A DNA stretch of 64,000 nt from Bacteroidota bacterium (GCA_018267155.1 JAFDZE010000072.1:1800-65799); one strand, 5' to 3'; shown: positions 12,701-44,912, numbered from the stretch's first letter. A program made the numbers and translations. The notes: generated by a model not told the origin, from the letters alone.

Positions 12701-12929
12701 TAAGCGCCAGTGAGGTGGTCCCATCAGAACTCGTGTACAGCCAGCTCTGCGAATCGCTGGGGCCATAGCAATAGGTCTCATCCAGCGGTGGCGCACCACA
12801 GGTGATGATGTTCTCCCCCGGGGGCGCTGCCGGTGGTGCCAGCGGAACGGGCAAGGGCACCAGGGCCATGGCCTTGAGGGTGAGCAGGGTGGAGCCTATC
12901 GCGGCCAAGCGTAACGTACGGACGTTCAT
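9744..12929 (-). CDS. Giant secreted protein: five CUB-like modules plus T9SS sorting domain
   Basis: A 1061-residue secreted protein with an N-terminal hydrophobic signal. Five cysteine-bounded CUB-like modules follow, each starting near a YCY motif (such as LDETYCYGPSDSQSWLY) and containing a D-x-L-x-IYDG core. Four linking Ig-like modules with the pattern DVTAMGSDPSIDITN ... YTVGPF and the CLDC linker separate them. The last 80 or so residues are a type A T9SS sorting domain (MFPNPTTGELYV, DMTGRLV, GTYAVRLY). It should be exported through the outer membrane and anchored or released. CUB-type folds bind glycans or proteins, so an adhesin role is an inference. It is a paralogue of the next gene upstream. 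Confidence 0.88.
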   Translation of the reverse strand: MNVRTLRLAAIGSTLLTLKAMALVPLPVPLAPPAAPPGENIITCGAPPLDETYCYGPSDSQSWLYTSSDGTTSLALIFSAGQIESDNWDHLTIYDGPDNSYPILFTHAGVFSTQDLTGVLAISTGPNIFMQMSSDASVSCSTGSFTSWAWQVGCLDCVQPQATFAVDLDCALGIFNVVVDVTAMGSDPSIDITNTGGAPVVTATATGSYTVGPFAQGTTVTVVLENELNSLCNVSSGPLTNYPCPIISCGPDQYSYCYGNSETFIQIFQGNNGFPVRLQFNSGGIYQFDGDLLTIYDGLNDQAPIIYQGTGTNGDLSGMFFTSSNPDFALTLKLTSTQFTSCSDGSALPWDYVVGCLDCVPPTATAGQVTTDCDGQIFSISVEISDLGTDPQVEIANDQGYPPTVVSAPGSYTAGPFPVGVPITLTVVNDANALCNVDLGVFENAFCPLIIPCANPALDQSYCYLNSDSHQWLYQDNEGLPLALDFSAGTIESVSFDHLDIYDGTDNTGNLLFTNTFGGTDLSTLPPLIAPSGSIYMVMSSDGSVSCATGNQTMWQWTVDCLDCSPVTATVGEITTDCDAQIWSVSVDVTAMGNDPSVDLTNDVGLPPTVITAPGTYTAGPFPVGTPVTLTLVNDSNSLCNVNLGVLENAFCPIIIDCADSVIYEDSYCYQLSDFHHWLYTSTSGAPLVIQFLQGTIESASWDHLSIYDGSDNTGTLLWTNGFLTTNLTDTTVVSIGDSIYMEMSSDPSISCSSGSMTEWIWNVYCLDCTPPTATFEMVPDCIHNGFSVDVNVTDLGQNTTDLLIRNTFNGDTLTGVHTGTYTVGPFPLGATGNVVVQSVNTPLCKQVSPAYFLAPDSCVTLACDAVGQEYCYSNADTAWFVYASGTSDPITVTFEYGQLLVNDYIQVYNGLDTTAQIVYMGNQGGQIGGLSISSSNPANALTVLVISSQAGSCATGQATPALYWSVSCGLVGENEFTVDHFAMFPNPTTGELYVRTADGLTGLVSMDVLDMTGRLVMSERFSANAARTERFDLGVLANGTYAVRLYTDDWSKTEQLQVAH

Positions 12930-12975
12930 GCGGTGATCGGTTTTCGGTGCGAGCCGTGTACTGGGCTAGACCGGG

Positions 12976-12983
12976 CGAATGTA
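12976..12983 (-). promoter_or_regulatory. Possible -7 box of the CUB-like gene
   Basis: TACATTCG on the minus strand matches TAnnTTTG at all but one position, 46 nt before the ATG at 12929. The same octamer precedes the M1 peptidase gene (28783-28790). Confidence 0.35.
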
Positions 12984-13048
12984 GTCAGCCGCACCGATCG
13001 CCCACTGGCCTTGATCGGGTCCAGTTATGAAGGCTGAGCCGGTACGTT

Positions 13049-16000
13049 TCAGTGCCGCAATTCCACCGCTGTCACCACGGACCGCGTGGTGGTGGATAAT
13101 CGCAGCGCGTACCGTCCATCGGCCAGCCCGCCCAGGTCCAGCAGCATCGCTCCGCCTGCATGGGGCAACGATCGTGTTTCCTGCACCTTTCGACCGGCCG
13201 GGTCGAACACCTCGGCCCGCACCACCTCGATGCCCGGCCATGGCACCATGACCTGGACCATACCGGTGCTGGGATTCGGGAAGAGCCCAACGGCCGTTCC
13301 ACCCGCCAGGTCCAGCCCGGTGAATCCACAGCCGACCGACCAGTGCAGTGCGGGGGTCGCCTCCCCCGTGGCGCAAGAACCCGTTCCGTCGCTCACGACC
13401 TGAACCAGCAACGCATTGTCCGGGTTGTTGCTCGTGAGGGAATACCCCGAAATGTCGCCACCGAAATTCCCCGCGTACACCAGTTGGGCGTCGGTGGTCA
13501 GTCCGTTGAAGACGCGGATCTGGTCCCCGGGCAGCAGTTGCCCACTGTTGAAGAAGATGGTCACCGGGACGCTCTCGCCACTCGTGTAGATGAACCAGAC
13601 CGTGTCCGCATCGGCGTAACAATGCTCCACCTGCAGCAGGTCGCAAGCCGTGATCACACAGGCCGCAGCGGGCAATGCGAGCTGCTCACTCACCGTACTG
13701 CAGAACGGATTGGATCCATTGATCACCGACACCTGCACCCCGACGCCCATGGGAATGGGACCGATGACCGTGTTGCCCAAGCCGATGCCGCTGAGCGTGT
13801 CCCCGCTCCATGAGTCGGTGATGAGCACGTCGTCCCCTGAACCCAGGCCGGTCACGTTCACATCAACGTTGTACCGGTTGTGCGGACAATCGGCGACCGT
13901 TCCGAACGTGGCCTGCGGATCCGTGCAACTGATGCAGCCCACCGTCCACACCCAGGGCGTCATGGCCCCACTGGCGCAGGACACACTGTAGTCCGAGGTC
14001 ATCCGCATGTAGAGCACGTTGCCCGTGCCTGCCACGGTGAGCCCGGCCAGTTGTTCGGTGCTGTTGAGCACGTGATCGTACAACACCGGGGCGGCCTGAT
14101 CGGGGCCGTCGTAGATGGTCAGATGGTCGTACGCCGCGTTCTCGATGGTGCCCGCGGAGAACACGATTCCCAGCGGTGATGCGCCCGAACTCTGGTAGAG
14201 CCATTGTTCGGTATCGTATTCCCCGTAGCAGTATGTATGTTCCTGCAGCGGGGCCTCACAATCCACGGGCGTGGCGCACACGGTGCCCAGGAAGGTACCC
14301 AGCGGCGCGGCACAAAGGACGTTCTCGGCGTTCATTACCCCAAGGGCAACGGGGACGCCCGCGAGGAACGGACCTGCCATGTACGAGCCCGCAGCCGTCA
14401 CCTCCACTGGTGGAAGACCCGCATCGTTGGTGATCAGCACCGTGTCCGCGGAACCCATATCCATGAGGTTGACCGGGACCGTGAAGCTCTGCGCGTCGCA
14501 ATCGATCGCCACATCCCCGGCCGTGGCCGTGGCCGTTTCGCAATCCAGGCAGTCCACCGTCCACACCCAGGATGTCATACTACCACTGGCACACGATACG
14601 CTGAGGTCGGAGGTCATGCGCATGAACAAGGACGTGCCTGTGCCCATCACCGTGAGGCCTGCCAATTGTTCGGTACCACCAAGCACGTGGTCGTACAATA
14701 TCGGCGCCGCCTGATCGGTACCGTCGTGGATCGTCAAATGGTCGTACGCGGCGTTCTCGATGGTACCTGCCGAGAATACGATACCCAGCGGGGCCGGGCC
14801 CGAACTCTGGTAAAGCCACTCTTCGGTATCGTACTCGCCGTAACAATAGGTCTGTTCCAATGGCGGCTCCTCGCAATCCACGATCGTGGCGCACATGGTG
14901 TTGATGAAGGATCCCAGGGATACGGAACAAAGGGTATTCTCCCCGTTCTCAAGCACGAGTGCCACAGGCGTTCCTATGGGGAAAGGTCCGGCCGTGTACA
15001 CACCCGTTCCGTTCACGTCCGTGGGTGGCAAACCCGCATCATTCGTGATCTGCAGCGCTTCGGCGGAACCCATGTCGGTCACGTTCACAAGCACCGAGAA
15101 TCCCTGCGCTCCACAATCGGTCTCCACCTCCCCCACTGTTGCGGAGGCCGGTTCACAGTCCAGGCAGCCCACGGTATAGTTCCATTCCGGGGTCAACCCG
15201 CCATCGGTGCAACTGAAACTGCTGTTCGACGTGAAACGGATGGTGAGCGCGTGGTCGGGATTGGTGGACGTTACGGTGATCCCGGTGAGGTCCCCGTTGT
15301 TGCCGATGCCCGAGAAGAGCACTGGATCCTGCGGTGTGAAGCCGTCGTGGATGGTGAGCGGATCATTGCCCGTGTTGGTCACCATGCCGCTGGTGAAGGT
15401 GATCCGCAACGGATAGCCCTGATCGCCTTGGAAGGTCTGTATGAGATACGCGTTGTTCGGGTAGCAGTAGGTGTAGGTCTCGGGGCCGCAGCCCACGATC
15501 GCGCATCCACCATTGGTCAGGTCGTTCATCGCCACGTTGCAGCCCGGATTCCCCGCGTGCATCACCACCAGATCAACGATCGCGCCGAACGGGAAAGGCC
15601 CGATGCTGTACGTGCCGGTCTGCAAGCCCCCGAGGTTGCTGGGGGCGCCATTGTTCACCGTCCAGTTCAATCCGACGGAAGGCGCATCGCCCAGGCTCTG
15701 CACCTCCACCTCCACACTGAACTGCTGGGCCCCGCAATCGTTGATGATGCTGGTGGAGGCCACAGGGGGATCGCAACCCGGGTTCGACATCAGGACCGTT
15801 GAAGCATGGCATACCTGCGCGGTGTTGCACAGGCTGTCGGTGTTCCAATGGGCGAAAAGATCCTGTGCGGTGGTCGCCTCCACGGTCAGGGGCGAGTCCC
15901 CCTGCCCCACCACCGGTCCATCGTACGCGCCTTCGCGCACGGTCACCCAACCACCACCTCCGTAAATAAAGGTGTACGAGGCACTCGGGATGATCCCGGT

Positions 16001-32634: not shown

Positions 32635-33279
32635 TCACCCTTTTCCCGGGTACACCTTTTTCACCGCTTCGTGACGGCTGCTCACCTGCAGCTTGTCATA
32701 CACGTTCCGGATGTGGACCTTGATGGTACCTGTGGCGCATCCCATGCGCTCGGCGATCTCCTTGTACATGAGTCCTTGGGCCAGGCCGTCGATGAGTTCC
32801 TTTTCTCGCGGAGTGAGGTCGTGGTCGGCGATCCTTTCGCGGGTCCTGCTCTGAAAGGAGTCCACGACCAGCCGTGCTATGGCGGGGCTCATGGGTGAGC
32901 CACCTTCCACAAGCTGGTGGATCGCTTCCACCAGCTGCCTCGCACCGGTGTTCTTCAGCAGGTAGCCGCTCGCCCCTGCGCACAAGGCCTGGAAGATGTA
33001 CGCCGGGTTCTCGAAGACAGTGGTGATAAGGAAGAGCGAGGAAGCCCGCATCGGTTTGGCCTCTGCCACGCACTCGATACCGTTGCGGCCCGGCATCCCA
33101 ATGTCCATGAGCACCACGTCCGCTTCGATCGTGGGCCAGGCCTTCAGGAAATCTTCGCCATTGGCGAAGCTTCCGGCCACGAACAGACCCGGTTCCTTCT
33201 GCAGGATCAGTCGGGTGAGGTCACGGATCTCCGCATCGTCCTCCACGATGATGATGCGGGTCCGTCTCGCTTCGGCCAT
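32635..33279 (-). CDS. NarL/LuxR-type response regulator
   Basis: A 214-residue two-component regulator. The receiver domain has the acidic pair EDD (13-15), the phospho-acceptor D59 in VVLMDIGMPG and the conserved lysine in GYLLKNTG. The C-terminal LuxR-type helix-turn-helix is LTPREKELIDGLAQGLMYKE followed by IAERMG and TIKVHIRNVY. The ATG at 33279 is preferred over a TTG three codons upstream. It is 10 nt downstream of the second kinase gene and is the last gene of the operon that starts with the two Asn-ending peptides, so it is the obvious partner of both kinases and a candidate regulator of the 38522-38688 promoters. Confidence 0.94.
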   Translation of the reverse strand: MAEARRTRIIIVEDDAEIRDLTRLILQKEPGLFVAGSFANGEDFLKAWPTIEADVVLMDIGMPGRNGIECVAEAKPMRASSLFLITTVFENPAYIFQALCAGASGYLLKNTGARQLVEAIHQLVEGGSPMSPAIARLVVDSFQSRTRERIADHDLTPREKELIDGLAQGLMYKEIAERMGCATGTIKVHIRNVYDKLQVSSRHEAVKKVYPGKG

Positions 33280-33289
33280 CGCTCGCAAG

Positions 33290-35179
33290 TTATCGCGGAC
33301 CCGGTCCCGGGCGTCCCCTGGCGGAGATCACGGTGCCCTTCCCCATTGCGCTCTCCAGCCGCCAGTCTCCACCATGCCGTTCGATCCGTGCGCGCATGTT
33401 GTGCAACCCGTTCCCACCGCCTTGGGCCGTGCCCGGGATGAAACCGGCACCATCATCGGCGATGACCAGTTCGAAGTACGGGCCATCGAGCATCAGTCGC
33501 ACACGAACGTTCGTCGCATGGGCGTACTTCAGTATGTTGTTGAATGCCTCGTTCACCACCAGGTGCATATCGCGACGCAGGTCCGGTTCCATCAAATCAT
33601 CCGGTCTGGCGCACGAAAGGTCCAGGTCGAAAGCAATGCCATTGTCACCCAGCAAGCGGTGGCCGAGTTCCCGAACATGGTCCAGCATTCCCTGGTTCGT
33701 GTCGCGGGCGGGATCCACGGCCCACACGATGTCGCTCATATTCTGGCTGACGAATCTGGCGTGTTGGCCGATCCGTGAAATGGCGTGCCGTGTCTCGGAG
33801 AGCTGGTCCGCATCGTTGGCAAGGGCCACATCACTTAAAAGGCGGATCTTGGTGAGGGTGGCCCCGATCTCGTCGTGGATGTCACGAGCGATCCGCGTGC
33901 GCACCTGCTCGGCCTCGCGTTGCTTCTCGCTGGCCACCAGTTGTGCCTGCGCGAGTTGGATCTGCTCGTTCTTCCTGTGCAGTTCATCGGCGTATCGGCT
34001 CTTGGAGCGGAACGAACGGTACAACACGAAGGCCAGTGCGAAGGCCAATGAACCGATCGCAACGGCTGCCCGTTTCTGGGAGCGCTCACGTATCGATGCG
34101 GCCCGTGCCAGGGCGATGGTCTTTTCGTGCTGGAAGTCACTGTGCGCCTTCTCCGTGGCCCGGACCTTCTCGATATCCATGTCCTTATCGTGCGCCGCTA
34201 TGGCCGCTTGTTGATCCGCGTACGCTTGGTGCATGTGGCCGACCTGCACATGTGCGAGCGATCGCAGGAGCAGCAGATGGAGCTGCACGTTATGGTCCTC
34301 GATCTCCTCGGCCAATACAAGCGCACTGTCCATCAAATGCGTGGCTTCAAGGGATCTGCCCGCGCCGAGCAGCAGCCGCGACTCACCGGCCACCCATCTG
34401 GTGTACGCCATCGGGTCCTTGAGCGCCGGGAGGAAACGGCGCGTGGACCTTTGCATCGAGTCCGCTTCCGCCCACCTCCCGGCCTTGTGCAGGGCTTCCC
34501 CCATGTTGATGTACGTGTTGACCAGATGGTGGTCGTTGTCCTGTCCGATGTACAGTTGAGCGGCCCGTCCATACCAGTACAATGCACTGTCGGTGGAACC
34601 GATGTTGCCGTGGATCACACCCAACTCGTGGTATGCATTGGCGATGTCAGGTCCGGGGGGAAGTGTATCGAGTACGGTTATCGCGCGCCGTACCATGGCC
34701 AGTGCGCCCTGCTGATCGTCGATCTCCCGCAACGCGAAACCCTGGTAGGACAAGGCAGCGCCCATATCCTTGGCTATGTGCAGCTTCTCCGCGTAACGGA
34801 ACATCTGCTGGAAGGCCACGATGGCCGAATCGAAACGGGAAGCCGAGTACCAACTCATGCCGCGGACGCGGCAGAGCTGCACAAGCCAGAACTCCTTGCG
34901 CGGATCGGGGTGACCGACCCGCAAGCACTGAGCCGAGCCGCGATCCCCGTACGCCCGCGCACTGTCCAGATCCCCCTCGAAATAGAAGCTCCTGGCCAGA
35001 TAGTAGCATGCCTTCGCGTAGCTGGTGTCATCCGCCGCGTGGCCCAAGATGGTACGCAGGCTGTCGATGTCCGACCGTTGCGCCCTGACGAACGGGGCCA
35101 GAAGGATCATGCACGCCGCGATGAGTGAACGCGCGATGGCGAGGGCGCACGAACCGCATGTCTCGCTGTTGCCTTTCAT
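33290..35179 (-). CDS. TPR sensor histidine kinase 2 (HisKA_3 type)
   Basis: A 629-residue kinase. An N-terminal signal-like segment is followed by a tetratricopeptide-type helical region (about 40-340), one membrane segment (AAVAIGSLAFALAFVLYRSF), a coiled linker and a HisKA_3 domain. The phospho-histidine lies in RIARDIHDEIGATLTK (about residue 435). The HATPase has NEAFNNILKYAHA, IADDGAGF and GGNGLHNMRAR. This layout places the TPR sensor outside the cytoplasm. It is a close paralogue of the kinase just upstream (15-nt gap); the kinase cores share MSDIVWAVDPARDT and RLLGDNGI. Its partner should be the NarL-type regulator 10 nt downstream. Confidence 0.93.
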   Translation of the reverse strand: MKGNSETCGSCALAIARSLIAACMILLAPFVRAQRSDIDSLRTILGHAADDTSYAKACYYLARSFYFEGDLDSARAYGDRGSAQCLRVGHPDPRKEFWLVQLCRVRGMSWYSASRFDSAIVAFQQMFRYAEKLHIAKDMGAALSYQGFALREIDDQQGALAMVRRAITVLDTLPPGPDIANAYHELGVIHGNIGSTDSALYWYGRAAQLYIGQDNDHHLVNTYINMGEALHKAGRWAEADSMQRSTRRFLPALKDPMAYTRWVAGESRLLLGAGRSLEATHLMDSALVLAEEIEDHNVQLHLLLLRSLAHVQVGHMHQAYADQQAAIAAHDKDMDIEKVRATEKAHSDFQHEKTIALARAASIRERSQKRAAVAIGSLAFALAFVLYRSFRSKSRYADELHRKNEQIQLAQAQLVASEKQREAEQVRTRIARDIHDEIGATLTKIRLLSDVALANDADQLSETRHAISRIGQHARFVSQNMSDIVWAVDPARDTNQGMLDHVRELGHRLLGDNGIAFDLDLSCARPDDLMEPDLRRDMHLVVNEAFNNILKYAHATNVRVRLMLDGPYFELVIADDGAGFIPGTAQGGGNGLHNMRARIERHGGDWRLESAMGKGTVISARGRPGPGPR

Positions 35180-35194
35180 TCCTTTTCGACGTGA

Positions 35195-37042
35195 TCAATG
35201 TATCGCACCATGTGCATCCACGCATGTGCCCTTCCCGGGGGTGGAGCTGATCCGGAAGCTGCCGCCATGGCGTTGCGCGCGATCGCGCATGTTGCGCAGG
35301 CCATTGCCCCCACCGGCTGTCCGGGAAGGATCGAATCCGGCACCGTCGTCCTGTATTCTCAAGGTAAAATGATGTGTGTTTAGCAGTATGGACAGCTTCA
35401 CGTTCCCTGCTCGGGCGTACTTGAGGATGTTGTTCAGCGCTTCATTGATGAGCAGGTGGATGTCGCGACGCAGTTCGGGCTCCAGTACCGCCGAGCCCAA
35501 AGTGCAGGTCAGGTCGAGGTCGTACGTGATGCCGTTGTCCCCCAGCAGGCGGTGCGCGAGTTCGCGCACATGGTCCAGCATGCCCTGGTGCGTGTCGCGC
35601 GCGGGATCCACCGCCCAAACGATGTCGCTCATGGATGTGCTGACCAACTTGGCGTGCTCCCCGATCCGTTGAAGTGACCGTTGCATTTCGGCGTGCTGTT
35701 CGAACGGGATGGACGCGGCCACATCGCTCAGCAGGCGGATCTTGGTGAGCGTGGCACCGATCTCGTCGTGAATGTCGCGAGCGATGCGTGTGCGCACCTT
35801 CTCCGCCTCGTGCTGCTTCTCGCTTTCCACAAGCTGATCCTGCGCGCGGCGGATCTCCATGTTCTTCTCTCGCAGGGCGACGGCCGTTCGCGCCCGAAGC
35901 CGGTATAGGTGCCAGAGCACGACGGCAATGACGGCCCCGAGGAGGGCCAGTCCGGTGGCGAGCCCGGTGCGCGTGCGTTGCCGTGCGAGGTCCGCCGTGG
36001 CCAACGCCCGTTCCTTGTCCCGTTCGAAGCCCATGCGCACCTCCGTGAGCTTGCGCTGCTCCTGCAGGCCCATGTCGCGCAACATGATCGCTTGCACACT
36101 GTCGCTGGCCATGAAGGCCTCGTTCACCCGGTGAAGGGCGGCGAGGGCGATGGAACGCACACGGTAGGCCTCGGAACGATCGAAAGGAAGGCCCAGTCGC
36201 GAGCTCAAGGCGATGGACGAATCGATGCTGGCGATCGCTTCGGTGTATTGACCACGGAACAGCTCGATCCGTGCGCGGTGGCCTTGGAGGATCACAAGTG
36301 AGGGTGGATAGTCCACCTGGGCTGCGATGCGTTCGGCGGTGCCCAAATGTGCTTCGGCCGAGTCGGATTGGCGTGTGCGATGGTAGATCTGCAACAGCAT
36401 GGTCTCTTCGGCCATCTGTCTGGAGGCGTCGTGCTCTTGCACATGGAAGGTCAGGGCCAACTTGGCGTAATGTTCCGCGCTGTCCCAATGCTCCTCATGC
36501 ACATGGTACGCGGCCATGGTGTAACGCGCGAGAGCGAGATCATCGCTCGGGCCCATGGGCTCCAGGATGTCCAGTGCTCGCTGCGAGTAGGTGCGCACGC
36601 TGGTGTTGTCGTGCATGGCGCCGAACACCTGCGACATGTACATGTAGAAGCCCGCGACCTCCACAGGTAGATCCTTCTCTTCGGCCATGCGTGCTCCGGC
36701 CTGGAAGCGGAGCAGCGCCTCGTCCAGGTGGCCGGTCTGATGCAAGGCGAAACCCGCATATTCATACAGTTTGAGCCGGTCCCTCGTCAGGGTATTCTGC
36801 CGTTCCGGCGGCAACCGATCATACACCTTCACTGCTCGACCCACCACTGCGATCGTACTGTCCATCTGCCCGTGCGCATAAAGCCAGTTGCCTGCCAGAC
36901 CGCGCAGGGCATGGATGCGCACGGAGTCGTCCTTGGCCGTGCGTGCCACAGTGGCGAGGCTGTCGCCCAGATGATCCTGCCCGTACAAGGGCACCGCCAC
37001 GAGGACGCGGAGAAAGATCAGCAGGTGGTTGAGCGGACGCAT
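35195..37042 (-). CDS. TPR sensor histidine kinase 1 (HisKA_3 type)
   Basis: A 615-residue kinase with the same layout as its neighbour: signal segment, TPR-type helices, one membrane segment (GLATGLALLGAVIAVVLWHL), a coiled linker, HisKA_3 with RIARDIHDEIGATLTK (phospho-His at about 422), and HATPase with NEALNNILKYARA, IQDDGAGF and GGNGLRNMRDR. The sensor halves of the two kinases differ far more than the kinase halves, so they probably detect different signals and share the output regulator. Its ATG is one base after the stop of the MccB-like gene (TGAgATG), a strong sign of translational coupling to that enzyme. Confidence 0.93.
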   Translation of the reverse strand: MRPLNHLLIFLRVLVAVPLYGQDHLGDSLATVARTAKDDSVRIHALRGLAGNWLYAHGQMDSTIAVVGRAVKVYDRLPPERQNTLTRDRLKLYEYAGFALHQTGHLDEALLRFQAGARMAEEKDLPVEVAGFYMYMSQVFGAMHDNTSVRTYSQRALDILEPMGPSDDLALARYTMAAYHVHEEHWDSAEHYAKLALTFHVQEHDASRQMAEETMLLQIYHRTRQSDSAEAHLGTAERIAAQVDYPPSLVILQGHRARIELFRGQYTEAIASIDSSIALSSRLGLPFDRSEAYRVRSIALAALHRVNEAFMASDSVQAIMLRDMGLQEQRKLTEVRMGFERDKERALATADLARQRTRTGLATGLALLGAVIAVVLWHLYRLRARTAVALREKNMEIRRAQDQLVESEKQHEAEKVRTRIARDIHDEIGATLTKIRLLSDVAASIPFEQHAEMQRSLQRIGEHAKLVSTSMSDIVWAVDPARDTHQGMLDHVRELAHRLLGDNGITYDLDLTCTLGSAVLEPELRRDIHLLINEALNNILKYARAGNVKLSILLNTHHFTLRIQDDGAGFDPSRTAGGGNGLRNMRDRAQRHGGSFRISSTPGKGTCVDAHGAIH

Positions 37043-37043
37043 C

Positions 37044-38075
37044 TCAGCCGAAGCAGGTGGAGTAATCGCGAAGATCGAGCAGTAAACGGCATCCCATCAA
37101 GCGTAGACCGCCCACCCCGGTAATGTGCTTGATCAGCTCCAGTGCTGCAATGTTCGCCATGATGGCATTGCTCGCGGCCATCGTGGGGGCGACAGCCATT
37201 TCGTTGATGCGCTTCACCGCAGAGGTCTGTGCATCCACCAGTGGCCCCCAGGATTCGAAGAGTTCATCGTAGCCGGATGTATCGGGCCCGACCATCGGCC
37301 CGATGATGCCCTGCACCCCCATGTAGCCGCATTTGATGGCGTGGTAGTGGAACTCAGCGCGTGCTGTGCTGATCCAACTGACGAGTTGGACGGGCCTGTC
37401 CGCGCTGATCATCACGTACCGCGTTCCAGGAAAGGTCGCGATGATCGAGCGCCACTGCTCCTGGCTACCGACCATGGCCCTGCACACTTGCACATGGCAC
37501 GCAGGGGCTATCCGCAACAATCCTTCGCGTGCGGCATCCACTTTGGGCCTGCGCACGTCGGCATGGGTGAAAAGTACCTGACGATGCAGGTTGCTCTCCT
37601 CCACCACATCATCATCCACCAACACCAGGGAGCCGACCCCGGACGCGGCCAGCGAGAGGGCCACCTGGTGGCCGACCCCGCCCAGGCCCAGCACCAGCAC
37701 CTGCGCCCTGTTGAGGCGATCCTGGCGCTCGATGTTCTCCTGATGGTCCTTCACCGGAGAAAGCACATCGAAAAGGTGCAATTGCCGGTCGAAACGCGAA
37801 TGCTCCTTCCGCTCGTCATCGAAATACTCGATGAGACCGGTCTCGAACAAGCGTGCCGAAAGCAGCTTGGCCATGTCCTGCGTTACGCCCATTGCGCGCG
37901 AGAGAACAGCGATGAAGTGTTCCTTGGGCGGCATCGGTGTGATGGCGTCGATCATACGGGCGAACGGCTCACCTCCGGGGAGGTCCACCCCTTCATTGAT
38001 CGTGGACAGCGAACGCACTTTACCCTCGGCCTCAAGGAAACGGATGTGGCGTTTGAAGCGGACACGTTGTGCCAT
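37044..38075 (-). CDS. MccB-like ThiF/E1-type adenylating enzyme (microcin C-like synthetase)
   Basis: A 343-residue enzyme. Residues 1-95 form a small N-terminal domain like the peptide-clamp of MccB. The E1/ThiF Rossmann domain follows: LGLGGVGHQ (GxGGxG at 130-135), VDDD (153-156), SNLHRQVLF (arginine finger R165), K178, and SADRP (224-228), the form seen in MccB (SADHP). RFDRQLHLFD (95-104) and GYMGVQGIIGPMVGPDTSGY also line up with MccB. The paired zinc cysteines of MccB (CxxC twice) are absent. MccB couples a nucleotide to the C-terminal Asn of a small peptide; two Asn-ending peptides lie directly upstream. Alternative: another E1-like RiPP enzyme. Confidence 0.85.
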   Translation of the reverse strand: MAQRVRFKRHIRFLEAEGKVRSLSTINEGVDLPGGEPFARMIDAITPMPPKEHFIAVLSRAMGVTQDMAKLLSARLFETGLIEYFDDERKEHSRFDRQLHLFDVLSPVKDHQENIERQDRLNRAQVLVLGLGGVGHQVALSLAASGVGSLVLVDDDVVEESNLHRQVLFTHADVRRPKVDAAREGLLRIAPACHVQVCRAMVGSQEQWRSIIATFPGTRYVMISADRPVQLVSWISTARAEFHYHAIKCGYMGVQGIIGPMVGPDTSGYDELFESWGPLVDAQTSAVKRINEMAVAPTMAASNAIMANIAALELIKHITGVGGLRLMGCRLLLDLRDYSTCFG

Positions 38076-38097
38076 GGGCGTGGAGCGGAAGAGCGAA

Positions 38098-38105
38098 CGA
38101 ACCTA
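38098..38105 (-). promoter_or_regulatory. Possible internal -7 box before the MccB-like gene
   Basis: TAGGTTCG on the minus strand fits TAnnTTTG with one change and lies 22 nt before the ATG, in the 77-nt gap after the second peptide gene. It could give separate expression of enzyme and kinases. Confidence 0.3.
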
Positions 38106-38152
38106 ACTCTTATCACGACCAACCACCTGATGTGATCGCGTGGTGAAGCGGA

Positions 38153-38320
38153 TCAATTCCCGTCCCAGCCGCCACGTTTGAGCTTGGGAGTGCCAGGAGG
38201 TGGTGCGGGGCGTCCATGGTCCGCACCCACCGTGGGAACCGGATGCGCCATGGGTGGCTTGGGCTCGGACGGGGTACTGCCGATGGCCATGATGAAGGTG
38301 AGGATGGCGATGGGGTTCAT
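38153..38320 (-). CDS. Putative RiPP precursor peptide 2 (Asn-ending)
   Basis: A 55-residue peptide, too short for routine gene finding. It begins MNPIAILTFIMAIGS, continues with a Pro-rich variable stretch (residues 16-45) and ends KLKRGGWDGN. The N-terminus and last ten residues are shared with the peptide encoded 36 nt upstream, while the middle is not: the pattern of a leader/core precursor family. The terminal Asn55 is the residue modified in microcin C (MRTGNAN), and the last seven residues (RGGWDGN) equal the microcin C peptide in length. The next gene is the MccB-like enzyme, 77 nt away. The alternative is an exported signal peptide. Confidence 0.75.
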   Translation of the reverse strand: MNPIAILTFIMAIGSTPSEPKPPMAHPVPTVGADHGRPAPPPGTPKLKRGGWDGN

Positions 38321-38356
38321 GATGTGCTGTGGAGGATGATCGATGGAGGTTCGGGA

Positions 38357-38521
38357 TCAATTACGGTCCCAGCCGCCGCGCTTCAGCCCCCCGGGCACGG
38401 GGTCGTTGTTCGTGGTAACGGTCTCCTTGATGGTGTTCGCGGTCTTCTTCTTCGGCACATGCGGTTGCGGTGCGGAGGTACCGATGCCTGCGATGAAAGC
38501 GAGGATGGCTATGGGGTTCAT
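38357..38521 (-). CDS. Putative RiPP precursor peptide 1 (Asn-ending)
   Basis: A 54-residue peptide beginning MNPIAILAFIAGIGT and ending GGLKRGGWDRN. The middle (residues 16-43) is Lys/Thr/Pro-rich and unlike that of its sister. It is the first gene of the minus-strand operon. An AGGAG sits 7 nt before the ATG, unusual in this genome and fitting strong translation of a precursor. A CACTTTTG promoter box and a dyad lie upstream. I chose the ATG at 38521 because the sister peptide starts with the same six residues and its frame has no longer homologous part. Confidence 0.78.
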   Translation of the reverse strand: MNPIAILAFIAGIGTSAPQPHVPKKKTANTIKETVTTNNDPVPGGLKRGGWDRN

Positions 38522-38551: not shown

Positions 38552-38559
38552 CAAAAGTG
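38552..38559 (-). promoter_or_regulatory. -7 box of the peptide/MccB-like operon
   Basis: CACTTTTG on the minus strand matches TAnnTTTG at seven of eight positions (first base differs), 30 nt before the first peptide ATG. ATTG lies near the -33 distance, next to the dyad at 38584-38599. Confidence 0.5.
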
Positions 38560-38621: not shown

Positions 38622-38637
38622 TACCACATTGGTGGTA
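38622..38637. promoter_or_regulatory. Dyad operator 2 (beta-helix operon side)
   Basis: TACCAC-ATTG-GTGGTA: perfect 6-bp arms and a 4-bp spacer. Its near edge lies exactly 24 bp from the CAGGTTTG box of the plus-strand operon. The two dyad centres are 38 bp apart. Confidence 0.6.
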
Positions 38638-38688: not shown

Positions 38689-39840
38689 ATGCGCAACGCC
38701 CTCGCCCCCGTGCTGCTGCTGGCCACATGCACTCAAGCCGCCGATCTGTTGGTGGCTCCCGGTGGTGGTGGCAACATGTATCCCACTATTTCCGCCGCGA
38801 TCGCCGCAGCCGCTCCGAACGACCGGATATTGATCGCGCCGCAGGTGTTCAACGAGGATGTCACGATCAACAAGGCGCTCGAGCTGGTGAGCAACTCCAG
38901 CACCGGTCGTTACACGGTGAACCGCACGGTGAACCTCGCGGCCACAGCCCCCGATGCGCGGATCACCATCTCGGGACTGTCGGCCATTGGAGATCTCACG
39001 GAGACCGCGCCGATGGGGGTTGGCGCAATGGTCACGATGGTCGGATGTCGACTCTCCCGGGTGGAGATGCTGATGGGGCAGGGCCGCATGGCGTTGTACC
39101 GCGACAGCATCTTCGGCGAGGTGGTGATCCTGCGGGGCGACGTGATCGGTTGCTACGTGAGCGGTACTCCGGACTCCGGCGGGATCCTGATCACGGGCGG
39201 CTCAATGTCCACCGAAACCAATCGAGTCATCGGGAATGACATCGGCGCTGCGATGACCAATACCTCCTTCTGGCCGATCATGATCCAGCCGTGCGCGCCG
39301 TTCATCTGTGAGAACAATCTGCTGCGGATCAACATGACCAACAGTTCTTCTTTTCCGCTATTCGTACCGAACGCGCCCACACCCAGCACCATGCCGTGCA
39401 CCATCAGGAACAACACCTTCCGATATCCGGATCATCCGAACGCTTACTTCATCAAGATCGAACAATCCGCCCCTTCGTTCACATTGGACATTCGCAACAA
39501 CCTTTTCGTGGGCCCCGTCCCTATCGACCCCATTGATGTGGTACCTGGTTCATCCACTACCGAAGCATACAATGTGCTGTCCTTCGACCTGGGCAGTATC
39601 GATCCCGTTTCGGGCGTGCCCACTTCCGGATCGCCTGCCATCAACGCGGGCGACCCGGATGCACAGTACACGGACCTCGACCTCACGCGCAACGACGCCG
39701 GCTGCCATGGCGGAAGCTCGAGCCGTGACAATTTCGATGATCCATTGCCGACCACGGCGGTGATCTGCTTCGTGAACGCACCGCGCCGCACCCAGACCGC
39801 GCTCTCCATTCCGATCTCCGCCGAAGGTACCGATCGCTGA
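38689..39840 (+). CDS. Secreted right-handed beta-helix protein, paralogue 1
   Basis: A 383-residue protein with a signal peptide (MRNALAPVLLLATCTQA). A beta-helix start typical of DUF1565/pectate-lyase-like proteins follows: YPTISAAIAAAAPNDRILIA then VTINKALELVS. Repeated N-x-hydrophobic strands continue to about residue 330. Near the C-terminus is the motif GDPDAQYTDLDLTRNDAGC, followed by HGG. It has no T9SS sorting domain. Beta-helix proteins bind or cleave polysaccharides, but no catalytic set is recognisable. It is the first gene of a five-gene plus-strand operon divergent from the peptide/MccB-like operon. Confidence 0.75.
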   Translation: MRNALAPVLLLATCTQAADLLVAPGGGGNMYPTISAAIAAAAPNDRILIAPQVFNEDVTINKALELVSNSSTGRYTVNRTVNLAATAPDARITISGLSAIGDLTETAPMGVGAMVTMVGCRLSRVEMLMGQGRMALYRDSIFGEVVILRGDVIGCYVSGTPDSGGILITGGSMSTETNRVIGNDIGAAMTNTSFWPIMIQPCAPFICENNLLRINMTNSSSFPLFVPNAPTPSTMPCTIRNNTFRYPDHPNAYFIKIEQSAPSFTLDIRNNLFVGPVPIDPIDVVPGSSTTEAYNVLSFDLGSIDPVSGVPTSGSPAINAGDPDAQYTDLDLTRNDAGCHGGSSSRDNFDDPLPTTAVICFVNAPRRTQTALSIPISAEGTDR

Positions 39841-39849
39841 AGCCTCCCC

Positions 39850-41043
39850 ATGAAACCGTTGCCCGCTCCTTTGCTCTCTGCGCTCGTCCTGTTCATCTTG
39901 ACCCGTATCTCGGCACAGGCCACCGACCGCGTGGTCGTTCCCGGTGGTATGCCCCCGGTGTACCCGACCATTGCCGCCGCATTGAACGCCGCATCGGACA
40001 ATGACCGCATCCTGGTGACCCCCGCCACGTACACCGGCACCATCACCATTGCGAAAAGCGTCGAGTTGACGAGCACTGTGAGCGGACAGCGGTATACCGT
40101 GACCGGCGACCTGGTGATCGCGCCCGGGCCTGGTCACAAGAGGATCGCCGTGCATGGTCTGGTGCTCAGCGGTATGATCGGTGGAGCCACCGATCCTAAT
40201 CCGCACTCCTTCACCTTGACCGGTAGCACCACCGGTCGGATCGATGTCCAGGGCCTGTACCGGACGCGCTGCACGCTGCTACGTGATACAGTGAACGGCT
40301 CGGTGCGCATGCGGGGCGGCGACCTGATCGGTTGCCGTATCACCGGCGGCGATGACCACCCGGGTGCTGACCACTTCGGCGTGCTGCTCATGTGGGGTGA
40401 AGAAGGCAACACCGCCACCTGCAACGTGATCGGCAACCATATGGGATCGATCGCGGAGCTGGCCGATGCGAACGGAAGCTTACCGGTGTCCATCACGGCG
40501 GCCAGTCCCGTGTACTTCGCGAACAACTACGTGGAACTCTTCGGCGCGGCCTATCTGAACCGGCCCATCGCCTGTTACACACCAGACTTCGATCAGATCG
40601 AGCGCTTCCGATTCGTGAACAATACGGTCCGATGGGTCAATGTCGGCAGCGAGCTCCAGGACCTGATCTGGGCCGATGGACAGACCGTGTACGCACCGAT
40701 CGATGCGCGGAACAACCTGTTGATCGGACCACTTCGCATCGCCGTGAGCGGGAACACCAGTTCGCAGGGGTTCAACCTGCAGACCATGGACAGTGGGCAG
40801 ATCAACATCTCGACCGGACGGCCGATACCCGCGTCCATCGCATGGGATAGCGGAGACCCGGACGCTTCATTCACCGACCTGGACCTGAGCCGGAACGACG
40901 TCGGTTGCTATGGAGGGTCCATGAGCCGCGACCAGTTCGACGATCCCGTGATGAACTTGGCCCAGGCAACTTGGACGGATGCTCAACACCGCGTGATCAC
41001 CCTCACCCCGACCGCCGTCGTCACCCAGGCCGTTGACCGCTGA
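39850..41043 (+). CDS. Secreted right-handed beta-helix protein, paralogue 2
   Basis: A 397-residue paralogue of the preceding gene, 9 nt downstream. A signal peptide ends in RISAQA, and the mature part begins with ATDRVVVPG. YPTIAAALNAASDNDRILVT opens the beta-helix, which runs to about residue 335. The shared C-terminal motif is GDPDASFTDLDLSRNDVGCY. The protein ends QAVDR, close to the ends of its sisters (GTDR, CTDQ, GSDR). The function is unknown; the shared layout suggests divergent ligand surfaces on a common scaffold. Confidence 0.75.
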   Translation: MKPLPAPLLSALVLFILTRISAQATDRVVVPGGMPPVYPTIAAALNAASDNDRILVTPATYTGTITIAKSVELTSTVSGQRYTVTGDLVIAPGPGHKRIAVHGLVLSGMIGGATDPNPHSFTLTGSTTGRIDVQGLYRTRCTLLRDTVNGSVRMRGGDLIGCRITGGDDHPGADHFGVLLMWGEEGNTATCNVIGNHMGSIAELADANGSLPVSITAASPVYFANNYVELFGAAYLNRPIACYTPDFDQIERFRFVNNTVRWVNVGSELQDLIWADGQTVYAPIDARNNLLIGPLRIAVSGNTSSQGFNLQTMDSGQINISTGRPIPASIAWDSGDPDASFTDLDLSRNDVGCYGGSMSRDQFDDPVMNLAQATWTDAQHRVITLTPTAVVTQAVDR

Positions 41044-41055
41044 TCGCACATCACC

Positions 41056-42213
41056 ATGCGGAACCACCACCTCACCCTTCTCTTCCTGCTGACCATGACC
41101 GCGAATGCGACGGACCGGATCGTCGCGCCCGGAGCAACCCTGCCACGCTACGCCTCGATATCGGCGGCCCTTTCCGCTGCGGCGGACAACGACCGGATCC
41201 TCGTGGTGCCGTCGATCTACACGGAGAACCTGACCATCGACAAGAGCGTGGAGATCCTGAGCATGGTACCTGGGCGACGGTATACCGCCACGGGCAACTT
41301 GTTGATCGCGCCACCCGTGCAAACGGTTAAGCGTATCGTGGTACACGACTTGGAACTGCTCGGTAACATCAGCACGGGTGGCCAAGTGAACCATCCGAAC
41401 ATCATCGTGCTCACCGGCTGTCGAACGGGTCGCATCGACTTCGGGCTGAATTTCAGCTGGCGGATCGCGCTGGCGAACGACAGCATCCTCGGGCGGTTGT
41501 TCCTACCGGGTGGCACGCTGGTCGGTTCCTACGTGCGCGGAGACACCCTCGGTGGGGGCGGTTTCAAGGTACTCACCTCCACTGGAAGCAACCGACCGCT
41601 CGTGCTCATCGGTAACATCCTGGGCGATCCTTACGAAGCGGACAAACCGATCGGATCCTGTGCGATCGACCTGTTCAGTGCAGACACGATCCGGTTCGAG
41701 AACAACCATGTTCGGCTCTATCGGGAGCACTACGTGTCCGAGCCCATCTGCCTGAACAGCGCCTACAATACCTCCGCCTCCGCCGTGCGTCTATTGAACA
41801 ACACATTCATCAGATCCGCTACGGCCGGTTCCGTCGGGCCGATCATTGCCGACCAGACCATCGGGTACGTGGAGTCCCGGAACAACTTCTTTCTCGGTCC
41901 GATCACGGCGCCCATATTCTCCCATCCCTACACGGATGAATGGAACCTTTTCAGTACGGACCAAGAACAGGTGGATCCGGCCACTGGCCGTCCGATCGCA
42001 GGATCCATCTGCACGGACGTCGGGGATCCGGACGGCCGCTACAACGACTTGGATCTGAGCCGTAACGACGCCGGGTGTTATGGCGGCTCGTTCAGTCGGG
42101 ACCTGTTCGATGATCCTCCGACGGGCACAGCGGAAATCCTGTGGAGTCATGTTGTTCGCCGCGTCTTCAGTAGTGTGCCGGTCGGGATCGACGCTTCTTG
42201 TACGGATCAATGA
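41056..42213 (+). CDS. Secreted right-handed beta-helix protein, paralogue 3
   Basis: A 385-residue paralogue, 12 nt after its neighbour. A signal peptide (LTLLFLLTMTANA) is followed by TDRIVAPGATLPRYASISAA, which opens the beta-helix, and NDRILVVPSIYTENLTIDKS. The C-terminal motif is GDPDGRYNDLDLSRNDAGCY. No enzymatic residues or sorting domain were recognised. The conserved start and end and the variable middle match the other three. Confidence 0.75.
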   Translation: MRNHHLTLLFLLTMTANATDRIVAPGATLPRYASISAALSAAADNDRILVVPSIYTENLTIDKSVEILSMVPGRRYTATGNLLIAPPVQTVKRIVVHDLELLGNISTGGQVNHPNIIVLTGCRTGRIDFGLNFSWRIALANDSILGRLFLPGGTLVGSYVRGDTLGGGGFKVLTSTGSNRPLVLIGNILGDPYEADKPIGSCAIDLFSADTIRFENNHVRLYREHYVSEPICLNSAYNTSASAVRLLNNTFIRSATAGSVGPIIADQTIGYVESRNNFFLGPITAPIFSHPYTDEWNLFSTDQEQVDPATGRPIAGSICTDVGDPDGRYNDLDLSRNDAGCYGGSFSRDLFDDPPTGTAEILWSHVVRRVFSSVPVGIDASCTDQ

Positions 42214-42222
42214 TCGCTCACC

Positions 42223-43407
42223 ATGCGCATTCACCTTCACCTCCTCCTGGCATCCATCCTGCTCCATCAGGCCGCGATCGCCACGGACCGCCTGGTCTGC
42301 TCTGACTGCAGCGGCACCGCGTACCCCACCATCTCGGCTGCACTGAACGCCGCTGTCAACGGCGATCGCCTCCTGATCACGCCGGACATCTATGAAGAGT
42401 CGGGAATCCTCATCTCGAAACAGGTCGAGCTCGTCAGTGCGGTACGCGGTGTGAGGTACACGATAACAAGGCCTGTCACTGTTCAGGCCGCATACGGGCG
42501 AACAGTGAGCATCCAGGGCGCGGACGTGCATGCCACGCTCAACAGTTCGCCAATTGGAACGGGAAGCACAGGATGCGCGATCAACCTGATCGACTGTGCT
42601 TTTGATCATATCGACCTGGCCTATTCGGGCATTTTCCTCACAGCATTCCGATGCACCGTGCGTGGTCAACTCGGCTTCTCACAAGGCGACATCGCAGGAT
42701 GTGCCATCCTGGGCCATCCGGACCTGGTGCAGCCGCAGCACAGCCCCTTCCTGTACATGGGCCAGACCACCGCCGAGGCGAGCCGCGCGATCGGCAACAT
42801 CATCGGGAGCACGACCTGGGAAGGCAGTCAGTGCATGGTTCTGCTGGACGCCCATGCCCCGCTGCTTTTCGCCAATAACCTGGTGCATTGGACACGGAAC
42901 CTGCCTTCGGCTTCCGCGGTCACCTTGGTGGGCAACACCGTGGATGGTATCACGACGGCAGGCATGGAGCTGCGGAACAACACCATCATGCGCACCAACG
43001 GCACTACGCAACCCTGGCTGGTGGAGGGGGTGCCGGATTCCTTCCCATTCACCGCCATGCTCACCAACAACCTGGTGGTTGGAGGTGCCGCATTCACGGT
43101 ACCAACTGGCACAGCCAACCTGTTCTCCGACACGTTCAACACGCTGACCATGGACTTCGCCTCGTATAATGCAAACACCGGCCAGCCACTGCCGGGTTCA
43201 CTGGCGATGGATGCGGGCGACCCCGATGTCGCACACCTGGATCTGGACCTCTCGCGCAACGATGCGGGTTGCTGGGGCGGTAGTTTCAGCCATGCCAATT
43301 TCCAGCCGGCACCTGATAGTGGTGCGCTCGTCGGCCTGGTCACGGCGCCCCGCCGCTTCGGCCAATTGACGCCCATGTCCTTCACCGCCACCGGATCCGA
43401 TCGCTGA
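42223..43407 (+). CDS. Secreted right-handed beta-helix protein, paralogue 4
   Basis: A 394-residue paralogue, 9 nt after its neighbour. A signal peptide (LLLASILLHQAAIA) is followed by TDRLVCSDCSGTAYPTISAA. The CSDC pair just inside the mature N-terminus is absent from the other three. The motif GDPDVAHLDLDLSRNDAGCW precedes the C-terminal tail, which ends TGSDR. Its function is unknown. Confidence 0.75.
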   Translation: MRIHLHLLLASILLHQAAIATDRLVCSDCSGTAYPTISAALNAAVNGDRLLITPDIYEESGILISKQVELVSAVRGVRYTITRPVTVQAAYGRTVSIQGADVHATLNSSPIGTGSTGCAINLIDCAFDHIDLAYSGIFLTAFRCTVRGQLGFSQGDIAGCAILGHPDLVQPQHSPFLYMGQTTAEASRAIGNIIGSTTWEGSQCMVLLDAHAPLLFANNLVHWTRNLPSASAVTLVGNTVDGITTAGMELRNNTIMRTNGTTQPWLVEGVPDSFPFTAMLTNNLVVGGAAFTVPTGTANLFSDTFNTLTMDFASYNANTGQPLPGSLAMDAGDPDVAHLDLDLSRNDAGCWGGSFSHANFQPAPDSGALVGLVTAPRRFGQLTPMSFTATGSDR

Positions 43408-43412
43408 ACAAC

Positions 43413-44912
43413 ATGAGAACCCTGCATGCCCTACTTGCCGTCGTACTGTTCGTTGCGCTCCGGGCCCAAGTACCCGTACTACAGCAGGCCGAGTACTTCT
43501 GGGACTCAGACCCCGGCCCGGGCAATGGGATCGCCATGAGCGCCATGGACGGCACCTTTGACCGTGCGTTCGAACAGGTGTTGGCCTACGCGATCCCCCC
43601 CTCACCAGGGTTGCACAAACTGTGTGTCCGAGTGAAGGGTTCGGACAATAGCTGGGGGCCTGTGTTCAGCACGATCATGGACGTGGTCGCAATGCGCGAC
43701 GCTCGAGTCATTACTGCAGAGTGCTTTTGGGATGCGGATCCAGGGCCGGGGAGCGGTACACCGATGCTTGCGTTCGACGGCAACTTCAATAGCGCTTTTG
43801 AACAGTTGAGCGGGAACCTGACCGCACCCTCCGCTGGGCTGCACCGCCTGAGTATCCGCGTGCGCGGAGTGGACAATACCTGGGGGCCGGTCTTCAGCAC
43901 GATAGTGGATGTGGTGAACGCCCGGCAAGTGAGGATCACCAGTGCCGAGTATTTCTGGGACACCGATCCCGGAGCCGGTAACGGACAGCCGATGATCGCC
44001 TTCGATGGTGCGTTCAACAGTGTGTTGGAACAGATGTCCGCCACGGTGAGCTTGACCGCCTTGTCGGTGGGACCGCACGTGCTCCACCTGCGCGCAAAGG
44101 GTGCGGACAATAGCTGGGGGCCGGTCCACCGGTCCGTTGTCCATGTGGATCCACAACCCGAGGTCACGGTATCGTTCGATCTGAAAGTAGCGCTGCAAGG
44201 ATGCATGGGAACCGCAGCGCTGATGAACAACGGCCTGCGGAACGCGGGACTGGTGCCACTCGCTGAACCGTACAGCGCACTGGGACACGACCTGGGCCTG
44301 AGCGCCGGTGCCACCACGACGTCCGCGGTCCTGAGCGTGATGTTCCCGCCAGGAGCTTCGGTAGTGGATTGGATCCTGGTCGAGTTCCATCCGGCACTGG
44401 CCCCCTCGCAGATCACAGCGGCCATGCCTTTGCTGCTTAGGCGCGGGGGCACCGTGGCGCAGACCGATGGTGGATACCCCTTCCTCATCACATTGCCGGC
44501 GGCATCCTACTACGTGGTGGTACGCCACCGCAACCACCTGCCTGTGGCCACCGAGAGTCCCGTGGCCATCTCCACGAACGGCGCCACGGTGGCCATTGAT
44601 TTCACCGCCGCGGCCGTTCAGGCCTTTGGTACGGATGCCCAGGTGCTGGCCGGGTCGCTCTATTGCATGTGGAGCGGTGATGCGACACACGACGGCATGA
44701 TCAAGTACACTGGAAGCGGTAACGACCGCGATCCGATCCTTACCGCCGTTGGCGGGTCCATGCCACACAATACCGTGAGCGGTTATTCGCTCCGCGACGT
44801 GAACATGAACGGGATCGTGAAATACACGGGGACGGCGAATGACCGTGACCCCATCATATTGAACGTGGGAAGCACGACACCGAACGGCGCGCGCGCCGGT
44901 CAACTGCCCTGA
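43413..44912 (+). CDS. Secreted repeat protein with dockerin-like C-terminal motifs
   Basis: A 499-residue secreted protein (signal MRTLHALLAVVLFVALRAQ). Three tandem repeats of about 80 residues each start AE(Y/C)FWD-x-DPG-x-G and end SWGPVF or NTWGPVF, a unit seen in Bacteroidota surface proteins. After a beta-rich region (190-400), two calcium-loop-like motifs follow: GDATHDGMIKYTGSGNDRDP and DVNMNGIVKYTGTANDRDP. These resemble the dockerin-like ends of haemagglutinin-type Bacteroidota proteins. It lies 5 nt after the last beta-helix gene and closes that operon, so it may bind or anchor those proteins. Confidence 0.75.
   Translation: MRTLHALLAVVLFVALRAQVPVLQQAEYFWDSDPGPGNGIAMSAMDGTFDRAFEQVLAYAIPPSPGLHKLCVRVKGSDNSWGPVFSTIMDVVAMRDARVITAECFWDADPGPGSGTPMLAFDGNFNSAFEQLSGNLTAPSAGLHRLSIRVRGVDNTWGPVFSTIVDVVNARQVRITSAEYFWDTDPGAGNGQPMIAFDGAFNSVLEQMSATVSLTALSVGPHVLHLRAKGADNSWGPVHRSVVHVDPQPEVTVSFDLKVALQGCMGTAALMNNGLRNAGLVPLAEPYSALGHDLGLSAGATTTSAVLSVMFPPGASVVDWILVEFHPALAPSQITAAMPLLLRRGGTVAQTDGGYPFLITLPAASYYVVVRHRNHLPVATESPVAISTNGATVAIDFTAAAVQAFGTDAQVLAGSLYCMWSGDATHDGMIKYTGSGNDRDPILTAVGGSMPHNTVSGYSLRDVNMNGIVKYTGTANDRDPIILNVGSTTPNGARAGQLP

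Follow-up and report, generated by a model that had tools for sequence, protein, structure and literature searches.

MccB-type enzymes are known from antibiotic pathways. Microcin C (mccABC in E. coli, in H. pylori and in relatives with long precursors) is the first comparison for the locus reported here, a six-gene operon at positions 32635–38521 of a 64,000-nt stretch of Bacteroidota bacterium DNA (GCA_018267155.1 JAFDZE010000072.1:1800-65799; the entire stretch is termed the window). Both have an enzyme that joins a RiPP recognition element (RRE; RiPP, ribosomally synthesized and post-translationally modified peptide) to a ThiF domain with a full ATP site, and both have precursors that end in Asn. 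In contrast to microcin C, the operon has no exporter, no immunity genes and no zinc cysteines in its enzyme, and it has its own kinase and regulator. Its precursors also differ in that there are up to three variants, distinguished at position −2, and the W and D of the tail are invariant. A known MccB clade has precursors of 17–56 aa (PMC6495379).

IndF, EnfB, GrcB and PaaA belong to the same superfamily and have an RRE, and the Ind and Enf cores, like the tails here, display Trp at position −4. Grc adjoins quorum-sensing regulators (PMC12250964, PMC12150305). Unlike the present operon, Ind/Enf/Grc-type clusters have transporters and often peptidases (a peptidase in ind), and their cores end in Ile (Ind, Enf) or Cys (Grc). 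The hosts of IndF, EnfB, GrcB and PaaA are Gram-positive bacteria or Pantoea, and, as far as the papers describe, their operons have no two-component system.

Agr and the nisin system NisRK are operons that combine an autoinducing peptide with a two-component system. The locus described here resembles these in that one operon, preceded by a regulator site (binding to this site is predicted), combines a peptide predicted to be modified with a modifying enzyme, a kinase and a regulator, but the host is a member of the Bacteroidota, the sensor is a tetratricopeptide repeat (TPR) domain and not a membrane sensor of the AgrC/NisK kind, the enzyme is of the MccB type, and there is no linked exporter. 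The arrangement was not found described in the literature searched. The survey of MccB checked clusters for a transport gene (PMC6495379) and that of IndF sought transporters and proteases (PMC12150305); operons that lack an exporter could therefore have been overlooked.

The initial annotation, made by a model from the sequence of the window, described six genes on the minus strand in which the stop of the enzyme and the start of the first kinase are one base apart (TGAgATG). All six genes and this junction are present in the window:

32635–33288, minus strand: response regulator, NarL-type (Response_reg + GerE by Pfam; 60%–85% identical in genus relatives)
33290–35179, minus strand: TPR histidine kinase 2, the conserved orthologue (signal peptide, TPR superhelix, one transmembrane helix, HisKA_3 + HATPase_c)
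35195–37042, minus strand: TPR histidine kinase 1, an extra copy found in the window only (kinase half 63%, sensor half 21% identical to kinase 2)
37044–38075, minus strand: MccB/PaaA-type ThiF-like adenylyltransferase with an N-terminal RRE/clamp domain (Pfam, PDB profile search, Foldseek, tree, ATP-site residues)
38153–38320, minus strand: precursor peptide 2, 55 aa, MNPIAILTFIMAIG...KRGGWDGN (conserved tail in peptide comparison)
38357–38521, minus strand: precursor peptide 1, 54 aa, MNPIAILAFIAGIG...KRGGWDRN (hydrophobic N-terminus, variable linker, W-D-x-N tail)

The Pfam families are ThiF in the enzyme, HisKA_3, HATPase_c and TPR repeats in the kinases, and Response_reg and GerE in the regulator; no Pfam or NCBIfam family matched the precursor peptides. 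The longest frame of the regulator opens with TTG at 33288, and an alternative start is the ATG at 33279.

Full-length orthologues of the enzyme, 54%–58% identical, are present in four genomes besides the window among 45 genomes of one genus (by labels). A class-wide sample of 395 genomes yielded two further genomes with the operon in another family, and a search of that family yielded a third. When the neighbourhoods were read, all eight loci displayed the same gene order, i.e. Asn-ending peptide gene(s), enzyme, TPR kinase and NarL-type regulator; the contig of locus L035 breaks off within the enzyme, and the peptides are thus visible in 7 of the 8 loci. The operon is not a chance arrangement, because it recurs in seven other genomes. 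The one-base spacing between enzyme and kinase is kept in all five genus members, and the gap is at least 12 nt in the second family.

Occurrence is patchy (5 of 45 genomes in the genus, 3 of 24 in the second family). Among 42 genomes searched in the order of the second family there was none beyond the three carriers, and in a phylum-level Bacteroidota sample the window was the sole genome with the operon. A pattern scan of 84,980 genomes gave none outside the genus; its patterns were fitted to the genus and would fail to recognise the second family. The genus relatives are named Flavobacteriales or Bacteroidetes metagenome-assembled genomes in the public genome scan. The conserved linkage that the initial annotation proposed to look for in related genomes is thus present for peptides, enzyme, kinase and regulator, and nothing in the grouping of the enzyme, in the linkage of the peptides or in their last residue refutes that annotation. 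The finding is real, and it is stronger than could be known from the window by itself.

Fifteen precursors of 52–58 residues from seven loci were compared. All end in W-D-x-N, where x is R in seven, H and Y in three each and G in two, a small set common to both families; the Asn-ending peptides first noticed in the window are conserved beside the enzyme. Asn −1, Asp −3, Trp −4 and Gly −6 are invariant, and Gly −5 is present in 14 of the 15. Loci L154 and L156 each show three tandem peptide copies with R, H and Y at position −2, in identical order. The codons of the tail differ synonymously (Asn AAT 7, AAC 8; Asp GAC 8, GAT 7; Gly by all four codons), and therefore selection acts on the protein. 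A hydrophobic character is conserved over the first 16 residues, with F at position 9 in 14 of 15; the middle varies in sequence and has many Pro, Lys and Glu residues. Judged by sequence, this is the layout of a RiPP precursor, with leader, linker and core. A DNA pattern for GGWDxN followed by a stop gave 14 matches in 69 genomes, every one of them inside these operons; the reversed control pattern gave none in the same genomes. The core of the first peptide of L153 (8872–9030) is PGIWDRN instead of RGGWDxN, and W-D-x-N is kept, which indicates the most important positions.

The R-G-G present in most tails, together with the membership of the ThiF domain in the E1 superfamily, brings to mind a ubiquitin-like use, where cleavage would expose RGG and the enzyme would act as an E1 that activates the tail for attachment to proteins, e.g. 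the neighbouring surface proteins. This is highly improbable: the peptide that ends in PGIWDRN has no GG, the invariant residues come after the GG, and the operon has no peptidase, E2 or partner with a catalytic Cys. In addition, PADLOC E1-E2 models match the ThiF core only, and no beta-grasp domain is recognisable in the short peptides, whose middle is charged and proline-rich.

Upstream of the first peptide gene are the following predicted sites:

38552–38559, minus strand: putative Bacteroidota −7 box CACTTTTG, with the proximal operator 24 bp upstream of it (consensus TAnnTTTG, PMC9723704)
38584–38599, no strand: predicted proximal NarL-type 7-2-7 operator CACCACC-AA-GGTGGTA, in the same place in 7 of 7 loci with upstream sequence
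38622–38637, no strand: predicted distal 7-2-7 operator TACCACC-AA-TGTGGTA, between the operon and the divergently transcribed gene (pattern search)

A 7-2-7 inverted repeat, TACCAY-N-NN-N-RTGGTA, is found 5′ of the first peptide in all seven loci with 9 or 10 of the 10 scored bases, and it starts 67–78 bp ahead of the first ATG. Shuffled sequence attains such scores in 0–3 of 2000 trials for five loci and in 21–23 of 2000 for two. With at most one mismatch allowed, the pattern has four matches in the window, two of them at the operon, against 0.17 expected. Half-sites of the window and the second family read TACCAC, those of three genus members TACCAT; the arms have mostly changed together. 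A box resembling TAnnTTTG lies 23–24 bp past the operator, and if it occupies −12 to −5 the operator centre is at −43.5 or −44.5 from the inferred start site (PMC9723704). Operators of E. coli NarL/NarP are alike in having inverted 7-base half-sites 2 bp apart and TACC half-sites, and at ogt the NarL II site has its centre at −44.5 (PMC7419079). Here, however, the operator stands before a Bacteroidota −7 box, and the regulator is a member of the NarL family for which binding is predicted. The NarL-type regulator probably binds the operator. A wider regulon was considered and rejected, as genome-wide matches to the 7-2-7 site are not in excess over a control pattern. The operator is at the operon without an excess elsewhere in these genomes, which argues for a local, self-regulating circuit.

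The relatives have a single kinase, to which kinase 2 is orthologous. Kinase 2 displays a signal peptide, a TPR superhelix (AlphaFold2 (AF2) model, pLDDT 85), a transmembrane helix and a kinase core; therefore the sensor should be periplasmic. The nearest folds to the TPR model include TPRs with bound peptides (LGN complexes, KLC with tryptophan-acidic peptides, Rap-Phr*). The orthologous TPR sensor is found solely in the five genus genomes that have the enzyme (513–632 bits; next TPR proteins 203 bits or less), and no similar peptide gene is upstream of the other TPR kinases of the genus. The peptide may plausibly be the ligand of the kinases.

The two kinases of the window are 63% identical in the kinase half, 80% around the H-box and 21% in the sensor; identity jumps from about 20% to about 80% near residue 405–410. 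From this comparison kinase 1 is best read as a duplicate with its output kept and its input changed, or a domain swap, or else the result of conversion of the kinase halves. The sequences support two inputs to one regulator and not one peptide per kinase. The initial annotation had proposed matched peptide-sensor pairs, and this part did not hold, as peptide to kinase ratios are 2:2 in the window, 2:1 in L032, 1:1 in L033 and L034 and 3:1 in L153, L154 and L156, and two kinases are present only in the window. L034 also has, at positions 10619–13376 of the same contig and about 7 kb away, a second TPR kinase with a NarL-type regulator (52% identical) and no match to an MccB-type enzyme adjoining it.

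For the enzyme, a sequence profile search of the PDB gave MccB (6e-40) and PaaA (1e-34), followed by E1, MoeB and ThiF. The AF2 model (pLDDT 79) shows an N-terminal domain of beta-strands with a winged-helix-like part, then the ThiF domain. The top 24 Foldseek matches of this model are MccB chains (TM ~0.7 over ~350 columns, so that the N-terminal domain is included); PaaA follows, and then ThiF and MoeB, which match the catalytic part only. The MccB-type enzyme of the initial annotation is thus borne out by the comparisons of profile and structure that it had suggested. The loci of E. coli and H. pylori MccB, with adjoining peptides MRTGNAN and MKLSYRN, served as controls, and the ATP/Mg-site residues D154, D156, N162, R165, Q166, K178 and D226 are identical in the eight family members and in both of these enzymes. 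In a tree the family is outside ThiF/MoeB and beside MccB and PaaA (86/72; weak support, long branches). Topology tests do not reject a joint clade with MccB (p = 0.33) and nearly reject one with ThiF/MoeB (p = 0.06). A plain ThiF/MoeB housekeeping enzyme is rejected by the N-terminal domain, the fold search and the tree. The enzyme appears, at the weak support of its sequence tree, to be a branch of its own among RiPP ThiF-like enzymes.

The sole plasmid match of the window enzyme (30%) is at L190 (890–3795), where an MFS transporter, an AAA ATPase and a ThiF-like gene are consecutive on a plasmid of Pantoea ananatis. At L191 (2386–3783), a Microcystis plasmid carries a ThiF family gene in a type III CRISPR locus, between unknown and CRISPR-associated genes.

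With an even balance of confidence, the locus is proposed to be a self-contained, self-regulating operon for a C-terminally modified peptide signal that would be read by its own two-component system. The two ~55-residue peptides would be RiPP precursors, with a hydrophobic leader, a variable linker and the core R-G-G-W-D-x-N. The RRE domain would bind the precursor and the ThiF domain would adenylate its C-terminal carboxylate. What follows is most likely MccB-like, the terminal Asn forming a succinimide to which a nucleotide would be attached, and cyclisation onto Trp is a rival to be taken seriously. Unlinked housekeeping functions would export the modified tail, and perhaps trim it, and in the periplasm the TPR domain of the kinase would bind it. 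The kinase would then phosphorylate the NarL-type regulator, which at the 7-2-7 operator ~44 bp upstream of the inferred start would activate the operon, forming an autoinducing loop. In the window, kinase 1, which joins a different sensor to the same kinase half, may feed a second input into the same regulator, and one output may be the divergent surface-protein gene.

Several observations weigh against this proposal. None of the eight family members has the zinc-binding CxxC pairs (four cysteines) of E. coli and H. pylori MccB. The MccB motif N-A/I-G-Y reads K-C-G-Y in the family, with K-C invariant, and the tree does not place the family inside the validated MccBs. A cytosolic enzyme and a periplasmic sensor would call for an exporter, and none is linked. 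As TPR matches are unspecific, the fold match agrees with peptide binding and goes no further, and the numbers of peptides and kinases are not one to one. An argument that the zinc-cysteine loss is harmless, as two lactic-acid-bacteria enzymes in the tree share it, was withdrawn; these two have no Asn-ending peptide beside them and may not be MccB but Ind/Enf-like.

The same circuit could operate with IndF-like chemistry, in which the indole nitrogen of Trp −4 would react with the adenylated C-terminus to give a four-residue W-D-x-N macrocycle without a nucleotide. IndF cyclises W6 onto I9 in ...NWYFI, so that a Trp at −4 is linked to the C-terminus (PMC12150305), and EnfA ends in WWIVI, also with Trp at −4 (PMC12150305, PMC12250964). 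Trp is at exactly this position in all 15 peptides. The invariant K248 occupies the position of the MccB Asn, and IndF needs a Lys near its core, to which K248 may correspond; the missing zinc cysteines point in the same direction. No IndF, EnfB or GrcB structure was among the PDB matches of the enzyme, and therefore MccB as the closest match leaves their chemistry possible. However, the known IndF/EnfB cores end in Ile and these peptides always in Asn, as MccB chemistry needs (PMC6495379), and the neighbouring R, G and D are also conserved, so that the invariance of the Trp may reflect recognition. MccB requires a C-terminal Asn and, using two ATP, forms first a succinimide and next an N-P bond (PMC12250964). 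In a large survey every precursor of an MccB-like enzyme ends in Asn (PMC6495379), which favours MccB-like chemistry here. Macrocyclisation within the proposed circuit is somewhat unlikely, and when the two chemistries are weighed roughly double the weight goes to that of Asn.

A narrower form of the proposed signal is a nucleotide-modified peptide pheromone. Here the MccB-type enzyme would nucleotidylate the Asn-ending peptides, which would be extracellular signals for the TPR kinase and not Trojan-horse antibiotics, and the residue at −2 (R/G/H/Y) would be a specificity code. In this specific form it is unlikely, and the claims of the initial annotation for a nucleotide-peptide and for pairing exceed the evidence.

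NarL-type systems usually sense environmental signals. The two-component system might thus read an outside cue (a competitor, a nutrient, the state of the envelope) and merely turn on production of a microcin C-like toxin or antibiotic, and antibiotic synthesis is an established function of MccB-type enzymes that act on Asn-ending precursors (PMC6495379). This is quite unlikely, since no exporter, peptidase or immunity gene, and no acetyltransferase or hydrolase, is present in any of the eight operons, in agreement with the absence of exporter and immunity genes first noted in the window; mcc and other ThiF-like comparison clusters have an MFS or ABC transporter close downstream, and the mcc loci contain immunity genes as well. 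Moreover, the kinase and regulator are inseparable from the peptides across two families.

The sole other genes common to these neighbourhoods encode secreted surface proteins. In the window the first of them shares the operator region:

38689–39840, plus strand: divergent secreted repeat protein with a common operator region, possibly a second target; the L032 orthologue is in the same position

It is one of four tandem paralogous secreted proteins of ~385–397 aa each (38689–43407, plus strand), divergent from the operon, and is followed by one more secreted protein (43413–44912, plus strand). In L032 each kind is represented at this place by a single orthologue (40% and 51%). Pfam gave no family for the two repeat proteins scanned. 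In L033 (11090–12574) and L034 (3739–5316) the divergent gene encodes a secreted protein of a different family, and the L033 protein has YadA-head-like repeats. The gene across the operator is thus a surface protein of changing kind. The second operator site near this gene is found in the window and, in degenerate form, in L032, L033 and L034.

An MccB-type enzyme tied to a two-component system and an operator, without exporter or immunity genes, in two families, points to ThiF-like RiPP enzymes that make signals. To our knowledge, the ligands of TPR histidine kinases are mostly unknown, and the operon would offer a ligand for one of them. It is also a very small system that could be reconstituted: one enzyme, one peptide, one kinase, one regulator and one operator. 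It would give the Bacteroidota, where such circuits are hardly known, a dedicated circuit for sensing a modified peptide.

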